IMG/VR virus record: IMGVR_UViG_3300011113_000693
Location: 1-22,473 of that record
Source of the DNA: a virus
Reading direction: 5' to 3' (one strand)
Length of the DNA stretch: 22,473 nt
The translations under genes and the position numbers were made by a program. The notes beneath the pieces were generated by a model, which was given only the letters and a program-made list of their open reading frames with translations, searched no databases and was not told the origin of the DNA. Shown piece by piece: positions 2,008 to 22,375 of the stretch (position 1 is the stretch's first letter; each line of letters opens with the position of its first letter).

Positions 2008-2319
2008 TTAGCAGTTCCATTTACGTAAAGATAGAGCTTTTCTGGTTGGACGACCCTTTTCATCCTTCATAGGACCTGGCATTCCACCCATTCTAGCACA
2101 GAAAGACTTTCTTCTATTGGCCGCTTTACTTCCAGGCTTTAATTTGGAAGGAGGTGTTGTTACGGCCATTGATAATTTTGAACCTGGATTTTCACGACGA
2201 TAGGAAGCAATACCTTTACGGTTCAAACCACCTTCTGGGTTTTTGCCTGCTTTTCTTTGCCATGCTGGCGATTTTTCATCCAAATTTTCTTCAGTGATGA
2301 ATTCTTTAAAAGTTTTCAT
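2008..2319 (-). CDS. Small conserved basic T4-like phage protein (DUF6321-like) with MKTF leader
   Basis: This 103-residue protein is rich in Lys, Arg and Gly and ends in RKWNC. The body, including the stretch WQRKAGKNPEGGLNRKGIAS and the later KAANRRKSFCARM, resembles a small family widespread in T4-like aquatic phages that I recall as DUF6321. Its function is unknown; the composition would suit nucleic-acid or virion binding. The N-terminus MKTFKEFITEENLDEKSP is close to the capsid-targeting leader of T4 internal proteins (T4 IPI begins MKTYQEFIAE) and contains two possible prohead-protease sites, ITE and LDE. Its ATG overlaps the stop of the preceding gene (ATGA), so the two are probably translationally coupled. 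Confidence 0.88.
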   Translation of the reverse strand: MKTFKEFITEENLDEKSPAWQRKAGKNPEGGLNRKGIASYRRENPGSKLSMAVTTPPSKLKPGSKAANRRKSFCARMGGMPGPMKDEKGRPTRKALSLRKWNC

Positions 2320-4223
2320 TTTTTATTCTTCTTTTTATTTGAATCCTGATTCAAAACTTTATCAGCCTGTGTTATCAACGGTTCTTTGTTAGAAGGACCA
2401 TATTCACCACCGGTAACTCCCATTTCTGTGCTAGGAGAATCAATTGATTCTTTTCTAAACTTCTTAAAAGATTTGCGTGTTACCTCTGCGGCACTGGTGT
2501 ATTTATTCTCTTTTTGTTCTCTATATGTAACATTTCCGAGACCAGACATGGGATAAACACTTCCCTGTGCGCGTGTATCGTATTCTGGGCTAACACCAGC
2601 AACATTTGTTACTTTGCCGCTTTGGCCTGACGGGGCTTTTTGTTTCCTGATTTTTTGCTTGTCGTTGTCTTGTTGGAAACGGGTTTCTTTTGGGTCTGGG
2701 TTTTTGGTGAGGGTTGGCTCTCCGGCTTCACTATAGGTTCTGAAGATGTAACTACTGTTTGACTTAGTGTCACCGTCTCTAACATCATCGGGGCGGCCGG
2801 CTTTTCTAGTAAGCTGGCAACTTGGGCAGATGTTGTCGTTGAGCTTGTATCGCTTGTACCCTGATACTTTTGAATATCCAGAGGATGTTTTGCAGGTGCA
2901 GGTTCCTTCGGCAAAAATAGTTTTGCGATTTGTTGTTTTATTTTCTGTAACATATTTTCTCTCCTTCAACGGATTTTTAATAAAAGATTCAAACACTTTG
3001 TTAATGTCATTTTTCTTGTGTTTTTCTAACCAAGATTCTGCAATTTCGTTTTCAACCGTTGCATCAAAGAACCAATTAGTCATTTCATAAACAATTGAAA
3101 TGTCTTCCTCTTTTTCAGCAAGTTCAAAAATTGTTGCTTCTGTTAGGTCTAATGAGTTGTCAAATTCCAAATATTTTGTAAATACTTCATTCAACTTTTC
3201 AGCAACTAATTGTGTTTTGTCCCATCTTTCTTGTCTAATTGATTCAGATAATACTCTTTCGTGATTATCGTTTCTTCTTTTTGAAGCTTCGTTTGTGGTG
3301 TTGACGAACACCATCATTGTTTCATAACCAAGTTCTTCCAATTCATTTTTAATTTCAATCATATTGAACTGTTCATTTGTCGTACCATTTATAATCAATG
3401 GCAATCTATTGCGAATGGCTTCTCTCCTAAAATCTTTGGAATGTTCGTAAAGTTTATGTTTATCATTTAAGATGCTAATAGCCAAAGTAGAATTTATCTC
3501 AACTGCATTACTTTCGGCTACTGCTTCACGAATGATAATATCTTTTCCTGAACCGGGACCACCACAAATGAATAGTGCTTTGAAAAGCCCATGATTTGTA
3601 CTTTCGTGTATACCCATACCCCTTCTCACATCACGGAAAAGTTCGCGTGTGTGCTTTTCTGGCACATGCTCTGGCACACCCATCTTAAAACTTTGAAATT
3701 CATTGTTCTTGGCATGTTCACGCATTTTAGATGCAGACATGCCCTCAACACCTTCTGAATCTGGGTCGCGTTGGCCAGCCGATTTCAATTCTATCTTTTT
3801 GAAATTGAAAAGTGCTTTTGGGTTCTGTTCTTTTGGTCCATTGTAATCATTTAGCCTCTTTTCATATTCCGGTATTCTATCCGAACCAGCAACCATGATT
3901 AGATGGTCATGACCGGCAGCATTTAGTCTTGCTGCGTGTTGTAAAAATGTTGGCAATTCTTTGCTGGATGTTTCAATATTGGCTCCAGGAAAAAATCTAC
4001 GGGCATGTTTTAACTTGGTCTTTGCATCAAGTGGATTTTTGTTTGCATCTGCCGAATGTGAAATAATCACATGGTGTGGAGCATTGTAATCTTTTGCAAT
4101 TTGTTTAACATGATTCACCAGCTTTTCGTGACCAACAGTGGGCGGATTCATCCTACCAAAAGCCATCACAACTGGACTTTTGGTTTGTAAATCTTCTTCA
4201 ACTTTTTCTAAGAATGTTTTCAT
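2316..4223 (-). CDS. NMNAT/cytidylyltransferase-like domain fused to P-loop kinase (NadR-like layout)
   Basis: This 635-residue protein has three parts. Residues 17-170 form an HIGH-superfamily nucleotidyltransferase: GRMNPPTVGH (23-32) supplies the (T/H)xGH motif, followed by VAGSDR (111-116) and GMSASKMR (161-168) in place of the usual SxTxxR signature. Residues 215-345 form a P-loop kinase resembling zeta-toxin or polynucleotide kinases, with Walker A GGPGSGKD (221-228) and an Arg-rich lid around 315-335. Residues 440-635 are a low-complexity tail with CxC (442-444) and CPSC (466-469) and a conserved-looking GRPDDVRDGD. NMNAT plus kinase is also the layout of bacterial NadR, so a role in NAD or nucleotide metabolism is possible; the substrate is not proven. 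The leader MKTFLEKVEEDL resembles a capsid-targeting sequence. Its ATG overlaps the upstream stop (ATGA). Its 3' third contains a probable second gene in another frame. Confidence 0.88.
   Translation of the reverse strand: MKTFLEKVEEDLQTKSPVVMAFGRMNPPTVGHEKLVNHVKQIAKDYNAPHHVIISHSADANKNPLDAKTKLKHARRFFPGANIETSSKELPTFLQHAARLNAAGHDHLIMVAGSDRIPEYEKRLNDYNGPKEQNPKALFNFKKIELKSAGQRDPDSEGVEGMSASKMREHAKNNEFQSFKMGVPEHVPEKHTRELFRDVRRGMGIHESTNHGLFKALFICGGPGSGKDIIIREAVAESNAVEINSTLAISILNDKHKLYEHSKDFRREAIRNRLPLIINGTTNEQFNMIEIKNELEELGYETMMVFVNTTNEASKRRNDNHERVLSESIRQERWDKTQLVAEKLNEVFTKYLEFDNSLDLTEATIFELAEKEEDISIVYEMTNWFFDATVENEIAESWLEKHKKNDINKVFESFIKNPLKERKYVTENKTTNRKTIFAEGTCTCKTSSGYSKVSGYKRYKLNDNICPSCQLTRKAGRPDDVRDGDTKSNSSYIFRTYSEAGEPTLTKNPDPKETRFQQDNDKQKIRKQKAPSGQSGKVTNVAGVSPEYDTRAQGSVYPMSGLGNVTYREQKENKYTSAAEVTRKSFKKFRKESIDSPSTEMGVTGGEYGPSNKEPLITQADKVLNQDSNKKKNKK
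2609..2953 (-). CDS. Probable overprinted gene nested in the NadR-like gene, 114 aa
   Basis: An ATG at 2953 opens a 114-codon frame shifted by one base relative to the surrounding 635-residue protein. It has a strong Shine-Dalgarno sequence, AAGGAG, seven bases upstream. The product starts with an amphipathic basic stretch (MLQKIKQQIAKLFLPKEPAP), continues as a Ser/Thr/Pro/Gln-rich linker, and ends in a Lys-rich tail (SKKSGNKKPRQAKAAK). Short proteins of this shape (helix, PA-rich linker, KK tail) are common in T4-like phages. Over this interval the outer frame uses C-ending codons far more than elsewhere (runs such as AAC GAC AAC ATC TGC), as expected if a second frame constrains it. No function is recognised. 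The alternative is a chance open frame, but the ribosome site argues against that. Confidence 0.6.
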   Translation of the reverse strand: MLQKIKQQIAKLFLPKEPAPAKHPLDIQKYQGTSDTSSTTTSAQVASLLEKPAAPMMLETVTLSQTVVTSSEPIVKPESQPSPKTQTQKKPVSNKTTTSKKSGNKKPRQAKAAK

Positions 4224-5413
4224 ATGTTTCTTATTCCGGCAAAATTTCTCTTAGAGAATTCGCTTCTATTTACAAATTTATCCGATTCTTTTCCATGATG
4301 AAAAACATAACCCTCTGGGTTTGCTGCTTCATCACCATGTTCATGTTTAAATTCTTGATGTTGATTCAATACATTGATAAGCACATTCTTAGCTTTCTGT
4401 ATGTGGTTATGCATCTTGAATAAATTATTATAATGTCTTCTATTTCTTTCAATTTTGTCCAACTCGGCAGAAAGTTCGTCTTGTTTGGCTTTTTTATTTT
4501 TTTCAACCTTTAGCTTATCAATTTCTTTATTCTTTTTGTTTTCTAACCAATTTTTGAAGTTTTGATGATTAGGTACTTCGCCACTTCTAACTGTGTGATT
4601 TATATAAGTTTCTAAGTGTCCACCAACACCCTGATGTGTTCCTGTTCCTGCGTACATATCATCACCGTGTGTGTCATGTACAGCTTTTGCTGCTGCTATA
4701 TGTTTTTGGAACTCTGCTCTTTCTTTTGGCCCAAAATGCACTTTTGAGGTGTCCATTCTTGGATCAACAGAAAAAACATCCGAATGTTGACCAAAATTTT
4801 CGTGATCTACTTCATGTGAAGCATTCAAACTGGCTGAATTTTTACCTTCATACGATAAATGTGTAACCAAGCCAATTTTAGCTTTCTTAGCTTTTGCACC
4901 ATGAGTTCCGGATGCTGTATATGTTATACCTGAAGGATTGGGTCTAAAAGACACTCCCTCTTTTGATGACTTTTTATCTTCGTCGGTGAACATCATATCA
5001 CCTTGATAAACACCTTTTTCTGGTGCAACTTTGGGTAAGTGTTTAAGTGCAGATTTAAGCTTTTCAACTAATCCAGGAGCATGACCGTGATTTCTCTCAA
5101 TGTCTGCTGGAGTGTAGTTTATTTTTGGTGTCTTGTTAAAAGCAGACTTGGAAGCAACAAAAAATTTACCACTTTCTGGGTGGTGCCCATAAACTATAGC
5201 TGGAGAACCATCGTATTTTGTTGTCAGTTCCGATGACTTTTTACCTTGCTGTATGTGTTGTGCAGCATTTTCCAGAGATGAGAAAGCATGTCTAGCACCC
5301 TTTTCTCCAGTCTGGAGTGGGCGGTCTTCTATGTGCGTTAGATGTTTTATTTGCCTGCTGGCACCTTCTTCTGGGTCCAGTTCTTCGTGCAAATATTGCA
5401 AAAATGGCTTCAT
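4220..5413 (-). CDS. Ligase-superfamily covalent nucleotidyltransferase-like protein (DUF6267-like)
   Basis: This 397-residue protein resembles a T4-like phage family I recall as DUF6267. The motifs of the covalent nucleotidyltransferase superfamily (DNA/RNA ligases and capping enzymes) appear in order: motif I TKYDGSPAIVYG with Lys66 as candidate nucleotide acceptor (KxDG, 66-69), a motif III-like VYQGDMMF (135-142), motif IV PEGYVFHH (366-373) and a motif V-like KFVNRSEF (379-386). A Lys/Glu coiled-coil-like stretch occupies about 285-345, just before motif IV, which is unusual. It could join or adenylylate nucleic acid or another nucleotide-linked substrate; this is inference. The leader MKPFLQYLHEELDPEE resembles the internal-protein leaders of the two downstream neighbours. 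The ATG has AGAGGA four bases upstream; the stop overlaps the NadR-like start (ATGA). Confidence 0.85.
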   Translation of the reverse strand: MKPFLQYLHEELDPEEGASRQIKHLTHIEDRPLQTGEKGARHAFSSLENAAQHIQQGKKSSELTTKYDGSPAIVYGHHPESGKFFVASKSAFNKTPKINYTPADIERNHGHAPGLVEKLKSALKHLPKVAPEKGVYQGDMMFTDEDKKSSKEGVSFRPNPSGITYTASGTHGAKAKKAKIGLVTHLSYEGKNSASLNASHEVDHENFGQHSDVFSVDPRMDTSKVHFGPKERAEFQKHIAAAKAVHDTHGDDMYAGTGTHQGVGGHLETYINHTVRSGEVPNHQNFKNWLENKKNKEIDKLKVEKNKKAKQDELSAELDKIERNRRHYNNLFKMHNHIQKAKNVLINVLNQHQEFKHEHGDEAANPEGYVFHHGKESDKFVNRSEFSKRNFAGIRNI

Positions 5414-5424
5414 TAAATCCTCTG

Positions 5425-5453
5425 AAATAGTACACTGTGACTATGTACTATTT
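5425..5453. repeat. Perfect 10-bp inverted repeat between glycan cassette and ligase-like gene
   Basis: AAATAGTACA at 5425-5434 and TGTACTATTT at 5444-5453 are perfect reverse complements separated by nine bases. On the minus strand the hairpin starts in the stop codon of the upstream gene and ends 12 bases before the AGAGGA ribosome site's ATG context of the ligase-like gene. No U-run follows it on either strand, so it is not a classic intrinsic terminator. It could be a protein operator, an RNA processing or attenuation element, or a scar at the cassette boundary. Confidence 0.7.
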
Positions 5454-6159
5454 AGTAGCCCCAGATTTTAATATCCACCCATTCTGACATATCTTCACGA
5501 ATAAGAGAGTGTCTTCCGCGATTAAAATTACCATCAACAAACGGATGATTTAAATCTAGTTTTTCCACCGTAACATGGAATTTATTCAACTGACTTTGTA
5601 TCATTTCATGTCCACATAGAACTACGCCGTTTTTGTAGTGTTGTTCTAGAAATAGAAATGTTGAAGCATAGACATTCATCGTATCAGAATCAGCTATGGC
5701 AAACTGGTCATTTAAAAGTGAAGGACCCTCAACATCTTTTGAAACATAGATTTTACCATGTTCTAATGAATCAAAATCTATGACTTTATTCAGTGCAAAA
5801 TCAAATCTGCTTCGGATAACATAGTCGTATCTAAATGCACCAAATACTTCATGTTTTACTCGGTATTCATTTGCAAGATTTATTGAGTAAAACATTGAGG
5901 TGCAGAAATTTGCAGGGTGCGAACCATTGGCCACTGTCATGTGGGAATTAACATTTGACGGTAACGAATAATCGTATGATGCTATTACCGGTTTGTACAG
6001 TTGACAAATATCGTCATATACAAAACTCTTAGAAGGATCACCTACCCATGTATGCAAAAAAACATCAACATCATATTTTTCAAGTAAATTTCTACTTATA
6101 AATTCAAATGCTTTTTTATAACTTCTGGGTTGACCCGATAGGCATAGTGCCAATTTCAT
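5452..6159 (-). CDS. Putative glycosyltransferase-like protein, paralogue of the 6607-7320 gene
   Basis: This 235-residue protein begins MKLALCLSGQPRSYKKAFEF and continues with DVDVFLHTW, YKPV and YDYVIRSRFDF. The same order (LLTGHMR, PDIFINTW, YKPV, YDVIIRMRPD) is present in the gene two places upstream, so the two are paralogues. The pattern of a short N-terminal beta strand with SGQxRS and a later RxRxD is typical of a family often found among phage and bacterial polysaccharide genes and usually taken to be GT-A-like transferases. The catalytic activity is not established. The ATG at 6159 lies 44 bases inside the 3' end of the GDPD-like gene, with GGAG ten bases upstream. The stop codon falls inside the inverted repeat at 5425-5453. 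Confidence 0.8.
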   Translation of the reverse strand: MKLALCLSGQPRSYKKAFEFISRNLLEKYDVDVFLHTWVGDPSKSFVYDDICQLYKPVIASYDYSLPSNVNSHMTVANGSHPANFCTSMFYSINLANEYRVKHEVFGAFRYDYVIRSRFDFALNKVIDFDSLEHGKIYVSKDVEGPSLLNDQFAIADSDTMNVYASTFLFLEQHYKNGVVLCGHEMIQSQLNKFHVTVEKLDLNHPFVDGNFNRGRHSLIREDMSEWVDIKIWGY

Positions 6160-6610
6160 TTACAAATTTCTCCACATATTTTGTACAAACTCCGGCAATA
6201 CTGTTATGACAATTTTTTGTCCATTCCCAATTTTCTGGTGTTCTTTCTGGCTGAACTGCTATGGAATTTCTTGTCAATTCTTTTCCAGGATAGGTCCAAA
6301 TAAATTGAGTGGATGTTAATGTGTAATCATCTTCTTGGTGCCAAAAATAATTAAATTTTATTGGCGTATATGACAGTACATATAGAGCATCAAGATTCTT
6401 GCAATGTAGCCATAGGCCGTGTTTACCGATAAACTCTGAAGTTGTTTTGTATTGTGGTTTGTCGTGACCCAACCACCATTCATTCTTTACAAACCAAACA
6501 TCAACTTCGCAATCATATCCTTTGGATAATGCAAGTTCAATTTGCTCAGGTGTATTTTCTTTTTCTAAATTTGGACCATTAAAAAGTCCACGATGAGCAA
6601 TTAAAATCAT
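6116..6610 (-). CDS. Short GDPD-like (glycerophosphodiester phosphodiesterase superfamily) protein
   Basis: The 164-residue product carries the hallmark residues of the GDPD TIM-barrel superfamily: HRG at 6-8, EN at 18-19, ExD at 35-37 and GHD at 48-50, giving two candidate catalytic histidines (His6, His49) and a metal-binding Glu/Asp set. It is shorter than classical GDPDs (roughly 240-300 residues), so the barrel is probably incomplete or minimal. It still has conserved-looking blocks after the catalytic core (WLHCKN, YFWHQEDD, IWTYPGK, SIAVQPE). In this sugar-gene setting it may act on a phosphodiester-linked glycan or glycerol phosphate; that is inference. The ATG overlaps the stop of the preceding gene (ATGA), and its own 3' end overlaps the next gene by 44 bases. 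Confidence 0.82.
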   Translation of the reverse strand: MILIAHRGLFNGPNLEKENTPEQIELALSKGYDCEVDVWFVKNEWWLGHDKPQYKTTSEFIGKHGLWLHCKNLDALYVLSYTPIKFNYFWHQEDDYTLTSTQFIWTYPGKELTRNSIAVQPERTPENWEWTKNCHNSIAGVCTKYVEKFVNEIGTMPIGSTQKL

Positions 6611-7320
6611 TGATATAAACTCTTATGTTTGTATTCACCCAAAGGCGTGTGCATAATTGTCTTGTTTACCATGAACTCTTGCCAAGGTAAACCCAACCGT
6701 TTGATAAAATGTTCCGAAATAACATGTGGGCATAATAGCCCGGTTTCTTTGTATAGATGTGGCAAATGATATAAAATTTTACAAAACAAACTCATTGTAA
6801 AAAAGTTTCCGACCTGAATCATGTCTGATGTTCCTTGACCCATATGATTTCTAAATCCTAAGGTGTAAAAACTATTCGGATCAAAATCGGGTAAAGGTTC
6901 ATTGAACACTAAATCTGGCCGCATACGGATTATAACATCATATATTTTACCTGTCAACATCATGTGTTCTTCAACAGCAAGCATACCTCGGCCAACCTTA
7001 AACCACATGGAAATCTGATTCTTGGGAACATGATAGAAATTGGTATATTCTTTGGCACGATATGAGAAATTTTCTTCAAATTCTTCGTATTTTTCAACAT
7101 TCATGTACACAGGTTTATAGGTACGTTGAATTGCATCAACATCTAAATTGGGACCACCTTCCGTTATACCCTTTGACGAATGTGGATCCCAATATGCTTC
7201 AGAATCCCATGTGTTAATAAAAATATCAGGCTCATATTTGTCTATGAAATGTTGTTTGGTATTTGGGAATACTTGTTCCCAACAACGCATATGACCAGTT
7301 AATAATAAAGCAACTCTCAT
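6607..7320 (-). CDS. Putative glycosyltransferase-like protein, paralogue of the 5452-6159 gene
   Basis: This 237-residue protein (from the ATG at 7320) begins MRVALLLTGHMRCWEQVFPN and shows PDIFINTWDSE, YKPVY and YDVIIRMRPDLVF. This is the same block order as the 235-residue gene downstream, so both belong to one putative GT-A-like transferase family in phage and bacterial polysaccharide loci. An in-frame GTG at 7323 would add one residue, but the ATG is preferred because it forms a TGATG overlap with the stop of the FkbM gene, and GAGAGGG lies just upstream. Acceptor and donor sugars cannot be read from the sequence. Confidence 0.8.
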   Translation of the reverse strand: MRVALLLTGHMRCWEQVFPNTKQHFIDKYEPDIFINTWDSEAYWDPHSSKGITEGGPNLDVDAIQRTYKPVYMNVEKYEEFEENFSYRAKEYTNFYHVPKNQISMWFKVGRGMLAVEEHMMLTGKIYDVIIRMRPDLVFNEPLPDFDPNSFYTLGFRNHMGQGTSDMIQVGNFFTMSLFCKILYHLPHLYKETGLLCPHVISEHFIKRLGLPWQEFMVNKTIMHTPLGEYKHKSLYQ

Positions 7321-7931
7321 CACACCCTCTCAAAGAAAATGTTGTCTTCGTTCACCTGAGAGGTTATGTTTGTAACAGTAAAACCATTTTTCTCAAGGAA
7401 GTCAAATGTTTCTTCTTTGGTATGCTGACCTTTATATAAACGCAAAGCGGCAGCCTGTGGCACTTCAACTACTCCGGACCTAACCATAGATATTTTTGAG
7501 CCTAAGCCTTTAAGCACCGCCAAGTCGGAGCCTTGAGCATCAATATGTAAATGGTCAATTTCGGTAACTTCAGGCATGAATATTTTGAGCCAAGATTCTA
7601 ATTTATACACATTTACTTTTATAGATTTTCTGACAACAAAATCGGTTCTACCTGGCCAAGTTTGTGCCAAATTATCATTGAATTCATTTAATGATGCCGA
7701 ACCGGTGTCGTTCTCAACCAAATGAAAAGAAGATTCTCCGTCATAATCCGAAATAGCGTGTTCATAAACTTTATATCTATCTGTAAATCCACCTTCTTTG
7801 GCAAGCCATCTTAATCTTGATGCAAGTTCTGGTGTAGGTTCAAATGCAACTACAATTGTATTTGGATCATCTTTTGCTATGTGTAAAGAATCTTGACCCC
7901 AATGTGCACCAACATCAAACAAATATTTCAT
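7320..7931 (-). CDS. FkbM-family SAM-dependent methyltransferase
   Basis: The 203-residue protein has the FkbM methyltransferase layout: a SAM-binding strand and glycine motif near the N-terminus (LFDVGAHWGQDS, 4-15), an acidic strand-2 end with AFEP (about 29-32), and the diagnostic IDAQGSDLAVLKG segment in the second half. FkbM enzymes are typically O-methyltransferases acting on sugars or polyketides, and related genes are frequent in phage and bacterial surface-glycan clusters. Within this cassette it most likely methylates a sugar hydroxyl added by the neighbouring transferases, which could cap or mask the glycan (inference). The gene begins two bases after the HAD/nucleotidyltransferase gene and its stop overlaps the next start. 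Confidence 0.9.
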   Translation of the reverse strand: MKYLFDVGAHWGQDSLHIAKDDPNTIVVAFEPTPELASRLRWLAKEGGFTDRYKVYEHAISDYDGESSFHLVENDTGSASLNEFNDNLAQTWPGRTDFVVRKSIKVNVYKLESWLKIFMPEVTEIDHLHIDAQGSDLAVLKGLGSKISMVRSGVVEVPQAAALRLYKGQHTKEETFDFLEKNGFTVTNITSQVNEDNIFFERV

Positions 7932-7933
7932 TT

Positions 7934-9316
7934 TTATTCCTTATGATTATCTAAGAAGTAATTCAAATCTTCTGGAGTTCCAATACCCCACATGCCTTCA
8001 ACATTTTTGACTCTGATTTTTTTGCCAGCACCGATTGCTTCATTGAAAACTGGGCAAACATAGAATTCATTATTCACACGAATATTTTTTGCGACCATCT
8101 GTTCAGCATATTTAACATAATCTGAACCGTGGCGCCAGTAATAAATTCCAACTGTTGCATTGTTTGATATAACTTTTTTCTCTGCAACTTCCGATACGAA
8201 ACCATTTTCATCCAGTTTTGCATATGACCATTTTGGATGTGTGGCTTCAAATGTGAGAATACCACCATCAATAGAATCTGCTGAGAAAGCGTACATGCAT
8301 TCGTTTGAGTTCCATTCAACAAATTGGTCAGAGTTTGCCATGACTAGTGGTGCATCGTTATCTATGTGTTCTTTAGCTAACAAAGTGGTACACGCTGCAC
8401 CTTCAGTTAATCCGTCAACCTGAACAATTTTGCAGCCAGGTGCAATCAGATTCAACAGATATTTGAGATTGTATTTTTCATAATGTTCTTTTTGAACTAA
8501 GAATATGTAATTGGCTTCAATATTCAAATTTTCTACCACAAGTTGAATCATTGGTTTTCCACGAACTTCAATAAGAGGTTTGGGAAAAGTGTAACCAACA
8601 GCAGAAAACCTAGAACCGGCACCGGCCATCGGAATCAAAACATTCAATTTATTATCTCGCCATGGTAGAGATTTTTTACTTTTACCTTCAATCGTATTCA
8701 TAAGATCATAAATCCTTTGCATCATATGTTCGCTATTCACTTCTTGTGCATTTTCAACTGGTAATAAATGTGCACCAGAATCTAAAGCACCTTGCCTTCC
8801 TATATGACTATCTTCAATAATGATTGTATTTTTAGGAAGAACATTTAAAGCTGTCATGCATTTCCAGTACATTTCTGGATATGGCTTTGCTCTACCTACA
8901 TCCTCATTACTGACAAAATAATCAACTTCTTCAATCAGACCAATACTTATGAGTGATAATTTTACTGTCTCACGAATAGAATTGGATGCAACCGCAATTT
9001 TGTATCCTTTAGATTTTATCTTTCTGAACATTGTTTGCAGCCAATATTCTTTTTTGAACCCACGGACAATATTGAATGTGGCTTCCTGTTTGTCATTCCA
9101 AATTTTATCATATTCAGAAACAGGAAGACCTTTTCTTTCGGTCAACATCTTGAGTTTTCTTGTGGTATTCAAACCATCATATAAGCTCAAGTGTTCTTCT
9201 CGGGAAATAACATATTTTTCACCGACTTTTCTCAGTGCATCGTTTAGTGCATCATAATGTATTTCTCTTGAATCAATCAAGACACCATCAAGGTCAAAGA
9301 TTACTAATTTATTCAT
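7934..9316 (-). CDS. HAD phosphatase fused to sugar nucleotidyltransferase
   Basis: This 460-residue fusion has two domains. Residues 1-210 are a HAD hydrolase of the beta-phosphoglucomutase/phosphatase type: DLDGVL (8-13, Asp8 nucleophile and Asp10), VASNS (109-113), Lys144 in GRAKPYPEMY, and IIEDS (166-170). Residues 223-460 are a nucleotidyltransferase of the sugar-1-phosphate type: IPMAGAGSRF (228-237) followed by FPKPL (244-248), with ANSDQF as the likely metal-binding segment and a terminal MWGIGTPEDL block. Such an enzyme could make an activated NDP-sugar and handle a phosphosugar in one polypeptide. Base and sugar specificity are unknown. The start overlaps the HtrL-like gene by eight bases. 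It is probably the donor-supplying enzyme of the cassette. Confidence 0.9.
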   Translation of the reverse strand: MNKLVIFDLDGVLIDSREIHYDALNDALRKVGEKYVISREEHLSLYDGLNTTRKLKMLTERKGLPVSEYDKIWNDKQEATFNIVRGFKKEYWLQTMFRKIKSKGYKIAVASNSIRETVKLSLISIGLIEEVDYFVSNEDVGRAKPYPEMYWKCMTALNVLPKNTIIIEDSHIGRQGALDSGAHLLPVENAQEVNSEHMMQRIYDLMNTIEGKSKKSLPWRDNKLNVLIPMAGAGSRFSAVGYTFPKPLIEVRGKPMIQLVVENLNIEANYIFLVQKEHYEKYNLKYLLNLIAPGCKIVQVDGLTEGAACTTLLAKEHIDNDAPLVMANSDQFVEWNSNECMYAFSADSIDGGILTFEATHPKWSYAKLDENGFVSEVAEKKVISNNATVGIYYWRHGSDYVKYAEQMVAKNIRVNNEFYVCPVFNEAIGAGKKIRVKNVEGMWGIGTPEDLNYFLDNHKE

Positions 9317-10139
9317 GTTTATTAAACTTCCTCAATATTGATCTAACATCTTCAATTGGAGCATCTAACGGCATCTTATGCAGTTCATATTTTTCTGGCT
9401 TCATGAAGTAAGAACTTAAAAGAAGCCCCTGGTCATCATCAACAAGTTTATTGTCCATCAACATTTCTAATGACTTTTTCATATCAACTTCAAGCATTTT
9501 CCATTGATCTTTTTCTCCAACAAAAACACCGCCAATTATGTATACGATGTTGTTTAAGACGGCTAGTTGAATTTGTTCAAGCTTACGATCAAGTACAGGA
9601 TCTCTATAATTAAAGTAATGCATTTTTCCCGGAGTAAAATCATATTCCCATTTCTTGGATACAGGAACATGTTCACTATCACGACAGTAACCAAAATCTA
9701 CCCATGCAGCCCATTCATTTGTAATAAGACCTTTTTCAAAAGCATCGGACACATAAAATGCTTTGAGTGATGTTACGCCAACATAGTCTTTAGACCAGTA
9801 TTCTGGGTTTCTAACTTGATAGGGATTTATTCGGCGTGTAAACTCAGGTGAACTTTGAATTGCTTCAATCTTATCACGGAGTTCTTGATGTAAATTAAAG
9901 TAATCATATTCAACTACTTTAACATTTGGTGAAATTGCGGCTAAGTGAGGCGCAATATCCGAAGAAGTGTAGACAATAATTTCGGTGTCAATTTCACACA
10001 TGCGCGTGAAATGGTCTATGTACTTATCAACAGACCTTTGCAAATAATGTGGAAGTGGACCACCATTTTTCTGAACTGATGTTGACCAATCACCACGACC
10101 AATGTCATAGAATGCAGTTACGATGCTAATTTTGCTCAT
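9309..10139 (-). CDS. HtrL/YibB (WlaTC)-like putative glycosyltransferase
   Basis: The 276-residue protein opens with ISIVTAFYDIGRGDW and later has an AAWVDFGYCRD segment, the two signatures I associate with the HtrL/YibB/WlaTC family. That family occurs in lipopolysaccharide and capsule loci of Gram-negative bacteria and in phages. The VDFG block sits where GT-A enzymes have their metal-binding DxD, so a transferase fold is likely, but no activity is known to me for the family. It lies 23 bases after the preceding gene, with a late-promoter-like TATAAATC in the gap, and overlaps the next gene by eight bases. Confidence 0.85.
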   Translation of the reverse strand: MSKISIVTAFYDIGRGDWSTSVQKNGGPLPHYLQRSVDKYIDHFTRMCEIDTEIIVYTSSDIAPHLAAISPNVKVVEYDYFNLHQELRDKIEAIQSSPEFTRRINPYQVRNPEYWSKDYVGVTSLKAFYVSDAFEKGLITNEWAAWVDFGYCRDSEHVPVSKKWEYDFTPGKMHYFNYRDPVLDRKLEQIQLAVLNNIVYIIGGVFVGEKDQWKMLEVDMKKSLEMLMDNKLVDDDQGLLLSSYFMKPEKYELHKMPLDAPIEDVRSILRKFNKHE

Positions 10140-10162
10140 TTCAAAATCCCATATTTATTAAA

Positions 10163-11047
10163 TTATGATTTATATAAAAAGTATTTAGGTGAAGTGCCGG
10201 TATTGGTCTCGGCCGTGATGTTTATTCCAAATTTTTTGCTGAAATGTTCCATCCATTTTGGATCACGATCATATTGATGTATGATTGTAAATGAAATTCC
10301 GTCAGAATTGCAAATCAAACCGTCATCGTTCATATGCGGCCTTTTTTCCAATAAATATGAATCCAGTTTACCAATCAAATCTGGTTTATTTGTAACATGC
10401 AGGTTTGCGTTCCAAGCATCTTTCAATTCCGTAAAGAGTGTTGCATCATACCATGGACCAAAGGCGAGTAACATGTTATACGCCGCCTGGTCGGCTACCC
10501 AATCTGCACGATTGGAAGAAAATTGGTATAGTTGGAAACATAGATCACGAATTGCATTTGCTTTTCCAGCCAAGACACCCACATTGTATACGGTATTGTC
10601 TTTCACTTTATTGTAAAAATATTCACCAAAATTTTTACGAATATTTTCACGGTTCCATTCTTCATTTTCAACTTTAATTGCTTCGCTTGATGCAATGATG
10701 TTTTTGTCTTTTAAATTTTTCTCTAAAAATTCTATAGGGTTCTTTTGGAAAATAACATCACGAACATCTGTTGAAATCACATAACGATACTTGTTGGCAT
10801 TTGTATTAAGAAAATCAAAAATATAAATGAAACGCAACATGTGAATCATCATGTTGTTTTCACTGGGTACAGACATAACAATTACACCCTCTTGTTTCAA
10901 TTTATCACACAATTTTTGGCTTGTATTAATAGCAAATAAAACCGTATCACCCTCAAAACCTGAATCTTTGATAGATTGCACCCAAGGTTTTAAAACATCG
11001 TAGTCAGTATACTTATTGAAAGCACCAATAATTAAATCTTTCGCCAC
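10163..11047 (-). CDS. GT-A-like putative glycosyltransferase, GTG start
   Basis: This 294-residue protein starts with an N-terminal beta-strand pattern (DLIIGAFNKYTDYD). It has YRYVISTDVRDVIFQKNP near residue 90, where DVRD looks like the metal/nucleotide-binding motif of GT-A glycosyltransferases, followed by conserved-looking WVADQAAYN. No transmembrane segment is visible. The best start is a GTG at 11047: it has GGAG seven bases upstream and no nearby in-frame ATG fits as well. The gene overlaps the GT2 gene by 16 bases. Sugar donor and acceptor are unknown. It is likely one of the successive transferases of the cassette. Confidence 0.8.
   Translation of the reverse strand: MAKDLIIGAFNKYTDYDVLKPWVQSIKDSGFEGDTVLFAINTSQKLCDKLKQEGVIVMSVPSENNMMIHMLRFIYIFDFLNTNANKYRYVISTDVRDVIFQKNPIEFLEKNLKDKNIIASSEAIKVENEEWNRENIRKNFGEYFYNKVKDNTVYNVGVLAGKANAIRDLCFQLYQFSSNRADWVADQAAYNMLLAFGPWYDATLFTELKDAWNANLHVTNKPDLIGKLDSYLLEKRPHMNDDGLICNSDGISFTIIHQYDRDPKWMEHFSKKFGINITAETNTGTSPKYFLYKS
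10167..10174 (-). promoter_or_regulatory. Possible T4-type late promoter, TATAAATC
   Basis: On the minus strand the gap before the HtrL-like gene contains TATAAATC, one base away from the T4 late-promoter element TATAAATA. Transcription would start about 10-15 bases downstream, leaving a leader of roughly 25 bases before the ATG at 10139. AT-rich DNA produces such octamers by chance, so this is only a candidate. If real, it would let the second half of the glycan cassette be expressed late. Confidence 0.3.
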
Positions 11048-11763
11048 GGGTATTCTCCATTCATATTATTTTTCATCACTTCATTACCTTTTACAAAGAA
11101 ACTACCTTGTACTGAGTCCTCACGACTTGCCACTCTATAGTTTACACTGTATTGACCATTCGTGTCAAATTTTGGCAAATTTTTCATCATAAAAGCCGAA
11201 AGTATTCTATCAACTTCTGGTTGTTCTTGTGGATGCCTCGCTCGGCGGTACCAGTAAGGTGAAAAATGAACAGCGGCCATTTTTGGTATCATAAAGCAAT
11301 TCACATCGATAAAATTATCATTCAATACAGATTTCCATTTACCAAGAGATTCACAATCATCATTACATATATATTCACCTTCCTGGTTAACTATTTTGCG
11401 GAGAGAATATGACCAATCATTACCTTGTTGGATGACATCCATAAGAGATTCAATATGATTATCTTCATACCAATTGTCTTGGTCCAAGAAACAAATATAA
11501 TCACCTTCAGCAATGAATGACATTGCACCATAGATTCTATGACCATTATATTGGTTATATCCTGTATTGTATGGAAGCGCGAATGCGGTGGAACGTGTTG
11601 CACCCACCATTGCTTGCGTGATCCTAACACCATACTTGTTAAAGCCATCTACCACAACTAAATGTTGTAAATTTTGATAGGTTTGTCTGTCTATAGATTT
11701 CAGTACATCATTTAATTGGTCACTTGCCGTAGTCGGCGTAATGACCGTCACTAGTGGATTCAT
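11032..11763 (-). CDS. Family 2 glycosyltransferase
   Basis: The 243-residue protein has the standard GT2 (GT-A fold) N-terminus: VTVITPT (5-11), SIDRQTYQNLQHLVVVDG (23-40), and the DxD metal/nucleotide-binding motif CFLDQDNWYED at 91-101 (Asp94 and Asp96). There is no membrane anchor, so it is a soluble cytoplasmic enzyme. The catalytic-base region lies further on, near the HPQEQPEVD stretch, and is less clear. It is the first gene of the glycan cassette in transcription order, starting one base after the stop of the 93-residue replication-operon gene and overlapping the next gene by 16 bases. It probably transfers a sugar onto a surface or virion acceptor. The target cannot be read from sequence. 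Confidence 0.9.
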   Translation of the reverse strand: MNPLVTVITPTTASDQLNDVLKSIDRQTYQNLQHLVVVDGFNKYGVRITQAMVGATRSTAFALPYNTGYNQYNGHRIYGAMSFIAEGDYICFLDQDNWYEDNHIESLMDVIQQGNDWSYSLRKIVNQEGEYICNDDCESLGKWKSVLNDNFIDVNCFMIPKMAAVHFSPYWYRRARHPQEQPEVDRILSAFMMKNLPKFDTNGQYSVNYRVASREDSVQGSFFVKGNEVMKNNMNGEYPWRKI

Positions 11764-11764
11764 T

Positions 11765-12046
11765 CTAACTCCTGGTCAATTTCAAAATTTTAGTTATCTG
11801 TGCTTCAATTGCAGTTTTGCGATTTGGCCAATATATGTATTCTTTGTCGGCCGTCTTTAATAACTTCGTCAAGAACGGTAAAATAAGCTTTTCAACTTCG
11901 GTCAATTTAGCTTTATAAGCATCTGCGGTTTCTGCGGTCTCATTAATAACTTTATTGTAGTCATCTTCTGAAACAGCAGAGAAACCAAAATCATCAGAGT
12001 CGTCAAACTCGTTAAGTATTTTTTGTATGTCTAGGTCTAGTGGCAT
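11765..12046 (-). CDS. Conserved small T4-like phage protein of unknown function
   Basis: A 93-residue acidic protein. The N-terminal third is Asp/Glu-rich (DIQKILNEFDDSDDFGFSAV), the middle is helical, and the C-terminus carries EYIYWPNRKTAIEAQITKIL. I recognise that KxYIxWPNR pattern as conserved in small proteins of T4-like cyanophages, but I know of no function. Its ATG overlaps the stop of the nuclease-like gene upstream (TAATG). It closes the replication operon before the glycan cassette begins, which marks the likely left edge of the ancestral replication block. Confidence 0.82.
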   Translation of the reverse strand: MPLDLDIQKILNEFDDSDDFGFSAVSEDDYNKVINETAETADAYKAKLTEVEKLILPFLTKLLKTADKEYIYWPNRKTAIEAQITKILKLTRS

Positions 12047-12957
12047 TATGGTCTTTCAACTATTACTACATTTTTATTGATTCGTTTTGCATAAGCAGCA
12101 AGAATTCTTATGCCAGGATATTCTTTAATGCTTTTTCTTGTTTTATCGTTTCTGATAAGGAAATAAACATCTTTGTCACCCTTAACATCTTTCATATCAG
12201 TAATGATACTACTCACATCAATGATAACTGAATCTTCTTGCATATCAAAAGAACTTTTTGAAAATGTTTTAGTTATAATACAACCGTTTGGTAAAATATC
12301 TGAGCCGAAAACAACATCTTTTTTTTCTGCCGATGAGGCTTCAACAGCAATGTTAGGTTCAATTGTAAAATAAGTTGTTTGTGGTATGAGTTTTGTTTTA
12401 CCTGCTTTGACTGCCATATCAATTATTTTTTTTGCTTCGGTGCCAAAATATGAATCAGCGGATTCCCAATATTCTGCATCATCTTTTTTAATACTAATTG
12501 GAAAAACTTTATTTTTGTAATCTATTAAATTTACATCCGATTTTTTTCTACCTGCGGTATCAGCACCGGCAGATACTGCTTCAACACAACCAAAAACTTC
12601 AAAAGTTTTATTTCCATTCATAAAAAATACATTGACTGGTCCAGTTTTTGCGGCACTGTTAATATAATCAACCAACATTTGTTCATTGTCCACACCCGCG
12701 CTTGCTTTGCCTTGTTTACTTGCAGGTTTGGCAAATACACTGAAATTACCAATTTTTACAAAACCAACAGATGATGCTGATGATGGAGTTTTATTGTACA
12801 TTGAACCTTTTATATTTTTATGTACTTTTTCCAAAGCATCAACTCTATTAATATCTACTAATATAGCGATTTTATTAGTAGATATTTTTTTCTGTTTATC
12901 AAAACCCATTGATGAAAGTGTTACGCTTAAACTTTCAAATGTAAAATTTATTGCCAT
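12046..12957 (-). CDS. Possible PD-(D/E)XK-type nuclease-like protein next to the helicase
   Basis: The 303-residue protein is not a textbook family member. Its middle contains a plausible PD-(D/E)XK nuclease core: a helical NEQMLVDYIN with Glu92, then KKSDVNLID with Asp141, then a strand ending PISIKKD with Lys157, where the usual Glu/Gln is replaced by Ser155. The spacing and the following AEYWESADSYF resemble phage proteins sometimes annotated as restriction-endonuclease-like. If active, it could process replication or recombination intermediates, or degrade host DNA. It sits 31 bases after the gp41 helicase gene, and its stop overlaps the next start. Loss of the canonical acid could also mean it is an inactive DNA-binding relative. 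Confidence 0.6.
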   Translation of the reverse strand: MAINFTFESLSVTLSSMGFDKQKKISTNKIAILVDINRVDALEKVHKNIKGSMYNKTPSSASSVGFVKIGNFSVFAKPASKQGKASAGVDNEQMLVDYINSAAKTGPVNVFFMNGNKTFEVFGCVEAVSAGADTAGRKKSDVNLIDYKNKVFPISIKKDDAEYWESADSYFGTEAKKIIDMAVKAGKTKLIPQTTYFTIEPNIAVEASSAEKKDVVFGSDILPNGCIITKTFSKSSFDMQEDSVIIDVSSIITDMKDVKGDKDVYFLIRNDKTRKSIKEYPGIRILAAYAKRINKNVVIVERP

Positions 12958-12988
12958 AGTTTTATTCCAAATAAAATTATTTAGTAAC

Positions 12989-18646: not shown

Positions 18647-19699
18647 ATGTCATTCAAAAAGATGCCATTTGTGGTGCTTTTTGCTATGATTACATCATTT
18701 TCTGTCGCCCAGACGACATATGATTCGAAAACGCTGGTGGATACCAATAGTTCATCCACAAGTACAAGCACAGTCAATACAAACAACACCAGCACTGCCA
18801 CAACAGTTAATACAAATAACACAAACGTTAATAGTGTTTCCACAAATGTTAACACCAGCAACAGTGTTAACACCAACAATAATGTCAATACTGGTACTAT
18901 GACTTATAACAACAATAATGTCAATGCCAGTACCTCTACAAGTACTAACGTAAACACAAATAACAATGTGAATTCTGGTACCATGACTTATAATAACAAC
19001 AATGTAAATGCTAGTACTTCTACAAGTGTTAATACTAATAACAATGTGAATACTGGTACCATGACCAATAACAATAATAATGTGAATACGAATACTTCAG
19101 CAAGCACATCCACAAATGTGAATACAAATAACAATGTGAACAGTGGTGATATGACAAATAGAAATATCAACACTTCAACTGCAACTTCTTCTTCAACTAA
19201 TAACAATGTTAATCAGAACATTCAAAGCGGTTCAATGGTGAATAAGAACTTGAATCAAAGTGAAGTTGTTCAGAAGGTTATTCAAGCACCACCAACCGCG
19301 GTTGCTCCTACGATGATGAGTGGTGGCAATAGTGATTTGTGTACAACTGGTACAAGCAGTGCGGTACAAACACAAATCTTTGGCGTAAGTTCTGGTGGAA
19401 CAGTTCGTGATGAAAATTGTGAAAGATTAAAGTTAAGCAAAACACTTTATGATATGGGAATGAAGGTAGCTGCTGTTGCTACAATGTGTCAAGATCGTAG
19501 AGTATGGGATGCAATGATGGCTGCTGGAACACCTTGCCCATATGAAGGTAAGATTGGTGAGCAAGCTAAAGAAATGTGGAATGCAAACCCTGGTAAAATA
19601 CCGGCTGAAGTAAAGGCTAAAGGCGATGACACATATAAAAAGATTGGTATCGGTAGTTTGCTTGGCGTTGTTGCTTACAAACTATTCGGAATACACTAA
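18647..19699 (+). CDS. Exported Asn/Thr/Ser-rich repeat protein with conserved C-terminal domain
   Basis: The 350-residue product has a Sec signal peptide (MSFKKMPFVVLFAMITSFSV, cleavage likely after the AQ near 21-22). An Asn/Thr/Ser/Val-rich region follows (about 30-210) with four or more imperfect units of about 26-30 residues built on VNTNNNVN-GTMT-NNNNVN. The C-terminal domain (225-325) has four cysteines in the blocks SDLCTTG, DENCERLKLSK, ATMCQDRRVW and GTPCPYEGKIG, and the protein ends in a hydrophobic stretch (IGIGSLLGVVAYKLFG). I recall this C-terminal block from proteins in other T4-like aquatic phages, with no known function. The repeats may form an Asn-ladder beta-structure, as in adhesins or ice-binding proteins (inference). 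AGAGG precedes the ATG. The last 74 bases also encode the start of the next gene. Confidence 0.88.
   Translation: MSFKKMPFVVLFAMITSFSVAQTTYDSKTLVDTNSSSTSTSTVNTNNTSTATTVNTNNTNVNSVSTNVNTSNSVNTNNNVNTGTMTYNNNNVNASTSTSTNVNTNNNVNSGTMTYNNNNVNASTSTSVNTNNNVNTGTMTNNNNNVNTNTSASTSTNVNTNNNVNSGDMTNRNINTSTATSSSTNNNVNQNIQSGSMVNKNLNQSEVVQKVIQAPPTAVAPTMMSGGNSDLCTTGTSSAVQTQIFGVSSGGTVRDENCERLKLSKTLYDMGMKVAAVATMCQDRRVWDAMMAAGTPCPYEGKIGEQAKEMWNANPGKIPAEVKAKGDDTYKKIGIGSLLGVVAYKLFGIH
18866..19202 (+). repeat. Imperfect tandem coding repeat, about 78-90 bp per unit
   Basis: Four consecutive units begin at codons for Val74, Val102, Val128 and Val158 and encode VNTNNNVN followed by TG/SG, a Met-Thr pair, an Asn run and a Ser/Thr run. 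Spacings are 28, 26 and 30 codons. A degraded fifth unit with NNVNQN and SGSMVN follows. Synonymous differences between copies show that the protein pattern, not the DNA, is being kept. The antisense strand appears as a long Leu/Val-rich open frame only because of this composition. Confidence 0.85.
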
Positions 19700-21242
19700 C
19701 GCACAGCCAGCAGAAACATACAGCACTGGTAACATTGTTATCAATACACCTCAAGGCGGTCCATCGTCTTGGGCGAATGGCGTTTATCAAAACAATCTGA
19801 CATGTTGGGGCTGGGGTAATCCAGGTTATTGTGGACCGAATGCGATAGTTCGACCAGGAAATGTTGTCAATTTTTCTTTCGGTACAACTGACTTGCATCA
19901 GATTCGATCAATTGAAAATGTTTTACCTAATTCTGGTACAGGTTTACAGGTAACAGGATATACTTTTGGATTTACTGCTAAGAATGGCAATGGATGGGAT
20001 GATGGTAGAGTGGACCAGTTAAGTGCTTATGTAAATCTTTATGACCGTTCAGGTGCAATTGTAACTAATAAAACATACAATTTAAATTATAAGTTTAATT
20101 GGACCACTTTTAATTTCAACGAAACATTTACAACACCATATGCAGCAAGTTCTTTGGGTAATGTTCGTTATGGTTTTGTAGGTAAAGACAATAATTATTG
20201 GGCGGGACCATATGGTCCAGAAATTAACAATATTAGTTTTTCATTGAAGTACACAGTTGATCCTTGTTCAACAAATGTTTTAAGTTCACCTAGTTGTCCA
20301 GGTTATCTGTCAGCAATCAACACATTGACACCGGCAACAACAACTGCACAAACTGCGCCAGTAAATACGATAACAACTTTACCAATCGTTGCAGATACAC
20401 CTTCGGCTGAAGTCAAGGTGGATGCGGGTGGTGTTCAAGTTTCTACCACAGGTTCAATCAGTGCGCCAGACAATATTCCACAATCTGTTAAAGAGTCACA
20501 AAAATCCGAAGAAAACAAGCCAGCACCAAACATGAATTTGATTATGAGTGTTGTTAGACAAGTGCAGGCGAATGATAGAGCAACACAACAGGCGGCTGTT
20601 CAAAATGCATTACAGGAAGTTTCAAATGCGATTGCAAATGCACAAGAACAAACCAATATGGTAATAGCAAGTAATCAAAGGTCAAATGAGAGATTACAAC
20701 AAGAAATTTCTACATCAGTTACTAATTCAAACAGTGTTGTAAATATTACAACACAAGTTCAAAGAACTACCGAAGCGCCAACACAACCTGCACAAATAAT
20801 TCAAACACAATTACCAAAAGTTGATTATTCTCTTTCTTCTACGATACCAACACCAACTACAATTGCTGTAAATAGGGTTGAACAAAAGAATGTTGAAATG
20901 GAATCAACACAACAGTCCAATGTTATGGGGTTAAACAGTCCCATTAATAACATACTACAGCAACGAATGAATATTGATAACACAAATGTAGATCAACCAA
21001 CTGAAACGGTGAAAGGCAATGTGCAACCGAATGAATTGGCTGGTAACGTTGACATAGCATCAATCGCAGTTAATCCAGCAGGATTTGCTGCTTATACGAG
21101 TTTAACTATCAAGGATGGTCAGTTATACAAACCTGAGGAGATTTATAAGAACCAAGTGACTGTAGATAATGCTAGAGCATTGAGACAACTATCTTCGGAT
21201 AGATTGCATCAAGAGATGGTCAACCAACAATTTAATAGGTAA
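19626..21242 (+). CDS. Exported phage protein with beta-rich N-domain and conserved C-terminus
   Basis: The 538-residue protein starts inside the previous gene. The ATG at 19626 is supported by AAAGG nine bases upstream and by the Sec signal peptide it supplies (MTHIKRLVSVVCLALLLTNY, cleavage likely near TNA at 24-26). Residues 30-215 form an aromatic and Gly/Asn-rich, probably beta-sandwich domain with NGNGWDDGR, YKFNWTTFNF and GPYGPEI, and paired cysteines around 59-69 and 219-229. A Thr/Pro/Gln linker and a helical Gln-rich segment (about 300-370) follow. The end (VDNARALRQLSSDRLHQEMV) matches the C-terminus of a family I recall from uncultured T4-like phages. The role is unknown: a secreted, surface or virion-attached lectin-like protein is possible (inference). 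Confidence 0.88.
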   Translation: MTHIKRLVSVVCLALLLTNYSEYTNAQPAETYSTGNIVINTPQGGPSSWANGVYQNNLTCWGWGNPGYCGPNAIVRPGNVVNFSFGTTDLHQIRSIENVLPNSGTGLQVTGYTFGFTAKNGNGWDDGRVDQLSAYVNLYDRSGAIVTNKTYNLNYKFNWTTFNFNETFTTPYAASSLGNVRYGFVGKDNNYWAGPYGPEINNISFSLKYTVDPCSTNVLSSPSCPGYLSAINTLTPATTTAQTAPVNTITTLPIVADTPSAEVKVDAGGVQVSTTGSISAPDNIPQSVKESQKSEENKPAPNMNLIMSVVRQVQANDRATQQAAVQNALQEVSNAIANAQEQTNMVIASNQRSNERLQQEISTSVTNSNSVVNITTQVQRTTEAPTQPAQIIQTQLPKVDYSLSSTIPTPTTIAVNRVEQKNVEMESTQQSNVMGLNSPINNILQQRMNIDNTNVDQPTETVKGNVQPNELAGNVDIASIAVNPAGFAAYTSLTIKDGQLYKPEEIYKNQVTVDNARALRQLSSDRLHQEMVNQQFNR

Positions 21243-22047: not shown

Positions 22048-22215
22048 TTATTTTATAAATTGGCTTATCTGAAACCACAGTATGAATGTGTACGGTGGTT
22101 TTGGACAGGAGATGTTTATAATAGAAAAGTCGTTTGTCTTGTTTGGAAACAAAAAGACAAAGAAAAGGAAGTGGTGCGCCCGAAGGGACTTGAACCCCTA
22201 ACCAACAAATTATGA
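22030..22215 (+). CDS. Doubtful small gene, 61 aa, running into the antisense of a tRNA
   Basis: The ATG at 22030 overlaps the stop of the coiled-coil gene in the ATGA arrangement used repeatedly here. The first 50 residues look protein-like, with a hydrophobic start (MIFEIILFYKLAYL) and a Cys/Trp/Tyr-rich block (YECVRWFWTGDVYNRKVVCL). I have an impression of similar small proteins in related phages but cannot confirm it. The last residues (RPKGLEPLTNKL) are the typical read-through of an antisense tRNA T-arm and are unlikely to be selected protein. No Shine-Dalgarno sequence is visible, so translation would depend on coupling. Confidence 0.4.
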   Translation: MIFEIILFYKLAYLKPQYECVRWFWTGDVYNRKVVCLVWKQKDKEKEVVRPKGLEPLTNKL

Positions 22216-22247
22216 GTTTGCTGCTCTAACCATTGAGCTACAGGCGC
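22172..22247 (-). tRNA. tRNA with CAU anticodon (Ile2 with lysidine, or Met)
   Basis: The minus strand folds as a class I tRNA: acceptor GCGCCTG with CGGGCGC (one U-G pair), D-arm with AGCTCAATGGTTAGAGCAG, and anticodon loop CTCATAA with CAT at 22212-22214. The T-loop is TTCAAGT, the discriminator A, and CCA is encoded (22174-22172). The CAU anticodon fits either elongator Met or tRNA-Ile2, in which C34 is changed to lysidine. The C4-G69 and C5-G68 pairs and the D-arm resemble E. coli Ile2, which I favour. T4-like phages often carry the Ile2 type to read AUA codons. Confidence 0.92.
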
Positions 22248-22248
22248 T

Positions 22249-22336
22249 TGGTGCGAGAGGCGGGATTCGAACCCGCAGTGTTTCTAATGTGGGAGATTTT
22301 AAGTCTCCTGCGTTTCACCAATTTCGCCACTCTCGC
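22249..22336 (-). tRNA. tRNA-Leu (UAA)
   Basis: A class II tRNA on the minus strand: acceptor GCGAGAG with CTCTCGC, D-arm with GTGGCGAAATTGGTGAAACG, anticodon stem GGAGA/TCTCC with loop CTTAAAA, and anticodon TAA at 22299-22301. It has a normal long variable arm (CACATTAGAAACACTG region), T-loop TTCGAAT, discriminator A and encoded CCA. It reads UUA, a frequent Leu codon in AT-rich genes. Its CCA end is one base from the start of the CAU tRNA, and a consensus promoter lies just upstream. Confidence 0.96.
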
Positions 22337-22345
22337 ATGAGTACT

Positions 22346-22374
22346 ATTATACAAAATTAAGTGTAATTTGTCAA
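22346..22374 (-). promoter_or_regulatory. Perfect-consensus sigma-70 promoter for the tRNA pair
   Basis: On the minus strand TTGACA (22374-22369) and TATAAT (22351-22346) are both exact consensus hexamers with the optimal 17-base spacer. Initiation would be near 22339, only about three bases before the 5' end of tRNA-Leu(UAA), giving almost no leader. It starts two bases after the encoded CCA of the preceding tRNA. It should be recognised by unmodified host RNA polymerase, so early and strong expression of the Leu(UAA) and CAU tRNAs is expected. Confidence 0.85.
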
Positions 22375-22375
22375 G

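Follow-up and report, generated by a model that had tools for sequence, protein, structure and literature searches.

Glycan clusters have already been described in T4-like cyanophages and pelagimyophages, and their roles are unsettled (PMC3037559, PMC7029224), with stuffer DNA, superinfection exclusion, and protection from grazing as long-debated options. The lipopolysaccharide (LPS) or glycan clusters of T4-like cyanophages (P-SSM2, S-SSM7, and S-SM2; S-CAM9, S-PRM1, and B23) combine glycosyltransferases with sugar-activating enzymes and methyltransferases, and the host recognition cluster of pelagimyophages is a hypervariable, glycosyltransferase-rich island in T4-like phages of aquatic bacteria (PMC7029224). 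Here, we describe a region with likeness to both, located on a 22.5-kb IMG/VR fragment of an aquatic T4-like phage (record IMGVR_UViG_3300011113_000693, positions 1 to 22,473; this entire stretch is hereafter referred to as the window). The region comprises eight genes, termed A to H, and as judged from comparison with relatives it is a permanent hypervariable glycan locus of this T4-like phage group.

The window carries the T4-like replication genes for DNA polymerase gp43, UvsX, and the DnaB-type helicase gp41 on its minus strand, and the gene order after gp41 is a 303-aa gene, a gene for a 93-residue protein (p93), A to H, and a DUF6267 gene, all in a single direction and with small overlaps (Table 1). 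With five predicted glycosyltransferases in addition to gp43, UvsX, and gp41, this is a glycosyltransferase-rich run in a T4-like genome. An initial annotation, made from the DNA letters alone, had described an eight-gene co-directional cassette, and the run itself was recovered as eight minus-strand open reading frames (ORFs) with five overlaps (A/B 16 bp, C/D 8, E/F 4, F/G 4, and G/H 44) and gaps of 23 bp (B–C) and 2 bp (D–E). Likewise, its family labels GT2, HtrL-like, HAD/nucleotidyltransferase, and FkbM were reproduced by Pfam and NCBIfam matches.

Relatives were fetched via gp41, DUF6267, and D, and all window proteins were then placed on them; because part of the loci entered through the D query, the counts do not reflect frequencies in the population, and three loci with another gene order (L065, L074, and L079) were left out of the main-order counts. 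All 46 complete islands of the main gene order lay between p93 (or gp41) and DUF6267, all of them contained glycan genes, and no empty site was seen among them. A was present in 46, B in 44, C in 31, and H in 23 of these islands, D and G in 18 each, F in 15, and E in 12, with the order always kept and island lengths—measured from p93—ranging from 3.7 to 10.9 kb. This combination of one position and differing content characterizes a hypervariable glycan island. A second gene order has DUF6267 ahead of p93, with the island bounded by p93 and a homologue of gene 4223–2316. Islands lacking D hold other sugar genes instead (named from sequence only), including epimerase/dehydratases, a nucleotide-sugar C-methyltransferase-like protein, and an aminotransferase-like protein, together with other nucleotidyltransferases and methyltransferases. 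The layout is reminiscent of a bacterial serotype locus, with fixed neighbours, the near-constant outer glycosyltransferases A and B, and exchangeable further genes. All eight genes showed purifying selection at ratios of nonsynonymous to synonymous substitution (dN/dS) of about 0.03–0.26, rough values owing to saturated dS and similar to those of gp41 and UvsX, and are therefore not filler.

Table 1 Features of the glycan locus and its surroundings in the window.
Feature	Position	Strand	Description
A	11763–11032	−	GT2 glycosyltransferase; Pfam Glycos_transf_2, E 1.4e-8
B	11047–10163	−	GT-A-like transferase; phrog_1579 glycosyltransferase, E 6e-9
C	10139–9309	−	HtrL/YibB family; HtrL_YibB PF09612, E 8e-46
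D	9316–7934	−	HAD_2 + NTP_transferase
E	7931–7320	−	FkbM-type methyltransferase; PF05050; TIGR01444, 72.8 bits (cut-off 37.7)
F	7323–6607	−	phrog_13607 family; predicted GT-A-fold glycosyltransferase
G	6610–6116	−	Predicted miniature GDPD-fold protein, 164 aa
H	6159–5452	−	DUF7796 / phrog_13607, same family as F
p93	11765–12046	−	93-residue small protein; conserved fixed left neighbour of the island
DUF6267 gene	4220–5413	−	PF19782, E 6e-94; fixed right neighbour
303-aa gene	12046–12957	−	phrog_12709
Late motif CTAAATA	12978–12984	−	After the gp41 stop, ahead of the first gene on the island side
Late motif AATAAATA	10152–10159	−	Between B and C; ends 12 nt before the C start
Late motif CTAAATA	5449–5455	−	Overlaps the H stop codon; predicted start of the DUF6267 late unit
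Covarying hairpin	5427–5444	−	5-bp stem, octaloop CACAGTGT; at the 5′ end predicted for the DUF6267 late mRNA

Among the variable genes, D and G form a strictly linked pair. The D protein consists of a HAD-IA phosphatase/mutase-like domain (residues about 1–200) with the core motifs FDLDG, ASNS, K144, and ED168–169 invariant (the DxD, S, K, and ED of HAD enzymes), and of a sugar-1-phosphate nucleotidyltransferase-like domain (about 222–455) whose GxGxR...PKP signature is nearly invariant as GAGSRF...PKPLIE. This second domain matches PF00483 (40.7 over 21.2), and 4evw is its closest structure (E 5e-20); none of the curated models reached its equivalog cut-off for the C-terminal domain. Assignment of D as a beta-phosphoglucomutase was rejected, as TIGR01990 scored 76.5 bits against a cut-off of 189.4, a wide margin, and D may be a phosphatase or a mutase. 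The position that we take to be the phosphate-binding Arg49 (read from the alignment to 6hdi/6hdh) is a Thr in D, which also counts against a beta-phosphoglucomutase.

G had no Pfam or NCBIfam match, and its PDB profile match reached only E 0.086. Its structural model (predicted local distance difference test [pLDDT] score 92.8) nevertheless bore out the GDPD-like label of the initial annotation: it aligned with the GDPD TM1621 at Z 11.5 over 142 residues (root-mean-square deviation [rmsd] 3.1), and GDPDs filled the top ranks of the structure search nearly throughout. H6, R7, E18, N19, E35, D37, and H49 are invariant in 30 sequences, and H6, R7, E35, D37, and H49 make up the catalytic H-R, E-x-D, and H motif of GDPDs. 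We therefore predict that G is a miniature GDPD-fold phosphodiesterase. It shares with the GDPDs TM1621 and PfGDPD the barrel fold and the N-terminal H-R, E-N, E-x-D, and H residues; it differs from GDPDs (about 220–250 aa) in its length of 164 aa, in lacking a Pfam or NCBIfam match, and in being an invariant partner of D.

In the main gene order, G occurred in 18/18 islands with D and in 0/28 without D; in the second, in 11/11 with and 0/1 without, giving 29/29 and 0/29 for both orders together. The 16 records of cultured phages with G are all from Synechococcus phages that also possess D or D-like genes. The pairing extends to cells, as 7/7 genomes with a full-length D (Prochlorococcus and SAR86 groups; two of each found directly and three from samples of 201 and 199 genomes) have an adjacent G, at 5–8 bp in five and at about 120–130 bp on the opposite strand in two. 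Outside these known genomes, broad samples of two phyla contained no G (0/397 and 0/291), and the genome with an archaeal D (L241) is without G. We infer that D and G act in one pathway. A literature search returned nothing relevant on a capsule module of HAD, nucleotidyltransferase, and GDPD. It is possible, if doubtful, that D–G is a so far unnamed two-enzyme module for a specific activated building block, common to aquatic T4-like phages, Prochlorococcus, and SAR86, and that in this clade it feeds a late virion 'serotype' locus, the particle coat varying between lineages as the O-antigen does between strains.

Turning to the transferases, B is only weakly glycosyltransferase-like by profile, and its residues T93-D94-V95-x-D97 are invariant. 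C, for which a 28-sequence alignment was made, scored below the cut-offs of the NCBIfam YibB models and is probably a glycosyltransferase; the HtrL family takes its name from an E. coli LPS-core locus. F and H both match phrog_13607, in line with the two paralogous transferases proposed initially, and H additionally matches DUF7796. The AlphaFold model of F (pLDDT 94.5; 52 sequences in the alignment) was most similar to the GT6 enzyme BoGT6a (Z 12.1, rmsd 3.4, 186 residues, 10% identity), and G10, R13, R135, and D167 are invariant in the F/H alignment. By sequence, F and H do not fall into GT6: their Pfam match is DUF7796 only, and PDB profile searches with B, C, F, and H returned chance-level matches only. 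Given the sequence identity of 10%, we call F GT-A-like rather than GT6, and the model predicts both F and H to be GT-A glycosyltransferases.

We scored late-promoter motifs in the 60 nt before gene starts, where the background was 1.3%. The late-promoter sequence is TATAAATA in T4 and CTAAATA in Aeh1 (PMC1524935), and NATAAATA in S-PM2 (PMC2984593). Nearly all main-order relatives possess TATAAATA upstream of DUF6267, or CTAAATA in the clade of the window phage (57/80 for the DUF6267 late motif overall). Within this clade, NATAAATA or CTAAATA precedes the first ORF after gp41 in 15 of 17 unique upstream regions, and a late motif precedes C in 13/16 and DUF6267 in 15/16; none was found before p114, gp43, UvsX, p110, gp41, p93, A, B, D, E, F, G, or H. 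Such placement at unit starts, with absence elsewhere, is that of T4-type late promoters, and transcript starts and gp55 dependence are predicted on this basis. Their restriction to three starts in the clade makes late transcription of the island, in two portions, probable. For C, the intergenic NATAAATA about 20 nt upstream is meant, since CTAAATA motifs 49–58 nt before C lie inside codons of B and were discounted. The locus thus neighbours the replication operon, as noted initially, and with late motifs beginning right after gp41 it would not share its transcription unit.

We propose that D synthesizes a nucleotide-activated donor, with a sugar phosphate as its substrate, that G cleaves a phosphodiester within that pathway, and that A, B, C, F, and H would assemble a short oligosaccharide that E would methylate. 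Consistent with the initial annotation, the set thus includes an enzyme for making the donor (D) and one for methylation (E). The annotation's wording of a near-complete pathway was too strong, as this version of the island has no epimerase or dehydratase and the sequence of D points to no particular starting sugar phosphate. The island enzymes would be produced at the same late stage as the virion proteins, from gp55-type promoters that follow gp41 and precede C. No flippase, polymerase, exporter, lipid-carrier enzyme, or ligase was found in the eight-gene run, and by hydropathy the eight proteins have no clear membrane segment (C is borderline at 1.79), arguing that the acceptor is probably reached from the cytoplasm. 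The most likely acceptor would be a protein on the virion surface, so that the particle coat would differ from one phage lineage to the next. A precedent exists in the virion glycans of mycobacteriophages, as reported in PMC12619734, which cites Freeman 2023. Taken together, a permanent hypervariable late glycan locus with a virion surface protein as the single most likely acceptor is the reading we tentatively favour, somewhat short of even confidence, and the host LPS core is a close second.

Several observations weigh against a late locus acting on the virion. The glycan itself is predicted from the genes, and the HtrL family points to the envelope; late timing favours the virion, whereas gene homology favours the envelope, and D–G in Prochlorococcus and SAR86 genomes adjoins sugar-activation genes of envelope-sugar type. 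A transcript starting from the motif before C would have a leader of only about 7 nt, and this motif may therefore serve downstream genes more than C. Lineages with other gene orders have a late motif at the first ORF after gp41 in only 10/80 cases. Cultured cyanophage islands start with a terminator and TATAAT-like sites, and only some with NATAAATA: it stands before the first island gene in S-CAM9, S-8S53, and S-PRM1, SynMITS9220M01 and Bellamy have TATAAT-like sites only, and B23 has neither directly before the first glycosyltransferase. Given these mixed cyanophage islands, we dropped late promoters as a general rule and confine it to the present clade. Read-through from replication promoters may offer an alternative route of expression, and the saturation of dS softens the argument from selection.

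The strongest competitor is plausible, although we still consider it doubtful: the island would remodel the host envelope (LPS core or O-chain) and thereby block superinfection or re-adsorption of progeny. Such an envelope or superinfection role has been proposed for the LPS genes of cyanophages and pelagimyophages (PMC7029224, PMC2984593), and it fits both the cellular neighbourhood of D–G and the presence of HtrL_YibB and FkbM families, which are typical of envelope loci. The eight-gene run contains no acyltransferase, flippase, or polymerase genes, and the late promoters of the clade would come late for superinfection exclusion. Since the addition of LPS core sugars takes place at the cytoplasmic face, an envelope target would not require the missing export genes.

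The initial annotation had read the locus as an inserted mobile cassette beside the replication operon, bordered by p93 and an inverted repeat, and had suggested comparing it among related phages. Variable content between conserved flanks, which that comparison recovered, agrees with such an insertion. The expected presence and absence of the cassette did not appear, since the slot is filled with glycan genes in 46/46 main-order relatives; both flanks are fixed, with p93 being a conserved neighbour rather than a border, and the GC content of the run is the same as that of the remainder of the window. There is no family match to an integrase, transposase, or other recombinase. Furthermore, turnover between close relatives looks to proceed gene by gene, as A and C are 84–85% identical to their counterparts in L082 and B 57%. 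We thus hold a recent mobile cassette to be very improbable.

As for the inverted repeat, which has perfect 10-nt arms (5425–5434 and 5444–5453), it is a hairpin conserved behind the late promoter, in the DUF6267 leader. The octaloop CA[ACG]AG[TC]G[TC] follows the DUF6267 late motif in 100/111 upstream regions; among 46 distinct sequences, picked by the loop only, the inner four stem positions are paired in 181/184 cases. Two-sided, pair-keeping changes (for example C-G to T-A) occur at three of these four positions, and pairing was observed in 45–46 of 46 sequences, with shuffles never above 38 of 46. The exact hairpin pattern has one copy in each of four relatives' records, and the longer 10-bp arms are a feature of the present window. 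With the T4 start site assumed six bases after the motif, the hairpin would lie at the 5′ end of the late mRNA. We interpret the repeat as an element of this leader rather than as a border of recombination, and a role of the octaloop hairpin as mRNA stabiliser or binding site is possible. In the relative L093, an extra 445-aa gene (8662–9999) lies between H and DUF6267, and late motif and hairpin are placed before it.

Less credible still is glycosylation of the phage DNA, one of the targets considered initially. T4-like phages are known for DNA glucosylation, and the locus adjoins replication genes. However, PF00303 (the dCMP hydroxymethylase/thymidylate-synthase family) was found in none of ten relatives' records (six of them 163–214 kb or else longer than 100 kb, and possibly not all complete), the models of F (GT6-like) and G (GDPD-like) do not resemble DNA glycosyltransferases, and the gene content of the island is too variable. 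In addition, cyanomyoviruses are without evidence of modified nucleotides (PMC2984593). The enzymes more probably decorate the particle or the cell surface than DNA. A filler role, in which the DNA would be a non-functional 'stuffer' of the head, was once considered for the LPS clusters of cyanophages (PMC3037559) and agrees with large, variable clusters of unproven function. It is the least credible reading of all in view of the intact frames, low dN/dS, ordered content, and strict D–G linkage.

With regard to the neighbouring genes, the closest cultured relative of p93 is in Pelagibacter phage Mosig EXVC030M (41%); its identification as the late co-activator gp33 was unsupported, as the gp33 annotation in Pelagibacter phage Mosig sits on another gene. 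The 303-aa phrog_12709 protein shares 38% identity with proteins of Stenotrophomonas and Vibrio phages that carry no annotation, and its gene was not found among the relatives fetched through gp41, so that gp41 and p93 enclose a second slot of variable content. On the other side, DUF6267 harbors a K-x-D-G motif in 122/122 relatives, a motif also seen where nucleic-acid ligases are adenylated, and may be a ligase-like nucleotidyltransferase. The adjacent gene 2316–4223 encodes an N-terminal cytidyltransferase-like domain (phrog_3041, phrog_395) and an AAA_33 kinase-like domain; phrog_455 spans both this gene and DUF6267, which suggests that the two are fused in other phages.

Further away, two plus-strand genes (18647–21242) point away from gp43 and have signal-peptide-like starts, the first being rich in Asn/Thr/Ser repeats; relatives keep both beside gp43. 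Three tRNA genes (Met, Leu-TAA, and Leu-CAA; 22172–22452, minus strand) lie at the window end, and an Rfam scan detected tRNAs only. Ten relatives' records contained no curli CsgG, and a cyanophage host was not adopted for the window phage, as no psbA was present in these records.

As far as our searches show, the fixed slot, the D–G pair in both phages and cells, the prediction of a GT-A fold for F and H, the late promoters, and the leader hairpin are new. Late-promoter placement, purifying selection, and the strict D–G pair argue for a function of these aquatic glycan clusters and, in this clade, shift the timing to be expected of it. Compared with mycobacteriophage virion glycosylation, in which phage transferases are thought to act on particle proteins (PMC12619734, citing Freeman 2023), the gene set of the window is much larger and variable, and its acceptor is a prediction. 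Bacterial O-antigen and capsule loci likewise combine constant flanks with exchangeable middle genes, whereas the eight-gene island lacks a flippase, polymerase, ligase, and exporter. Among the T4-like cyanophages, the D and G proteins of the window phage recur in S-CAM9, S-PRM1, and B23; the cyanophage clusters differ in lying near tRNAs or hli genes, in possessing heptose/epimerase genes, and in having no HtrL, and the psbA-free records set the relatives of the window phage apart from cyanophages. Finally, the pelagimyophage cluster is located between VrlC and gp14 together with tail fibres, whereas the island described here occupies its own slot between p93 and DUF6267.

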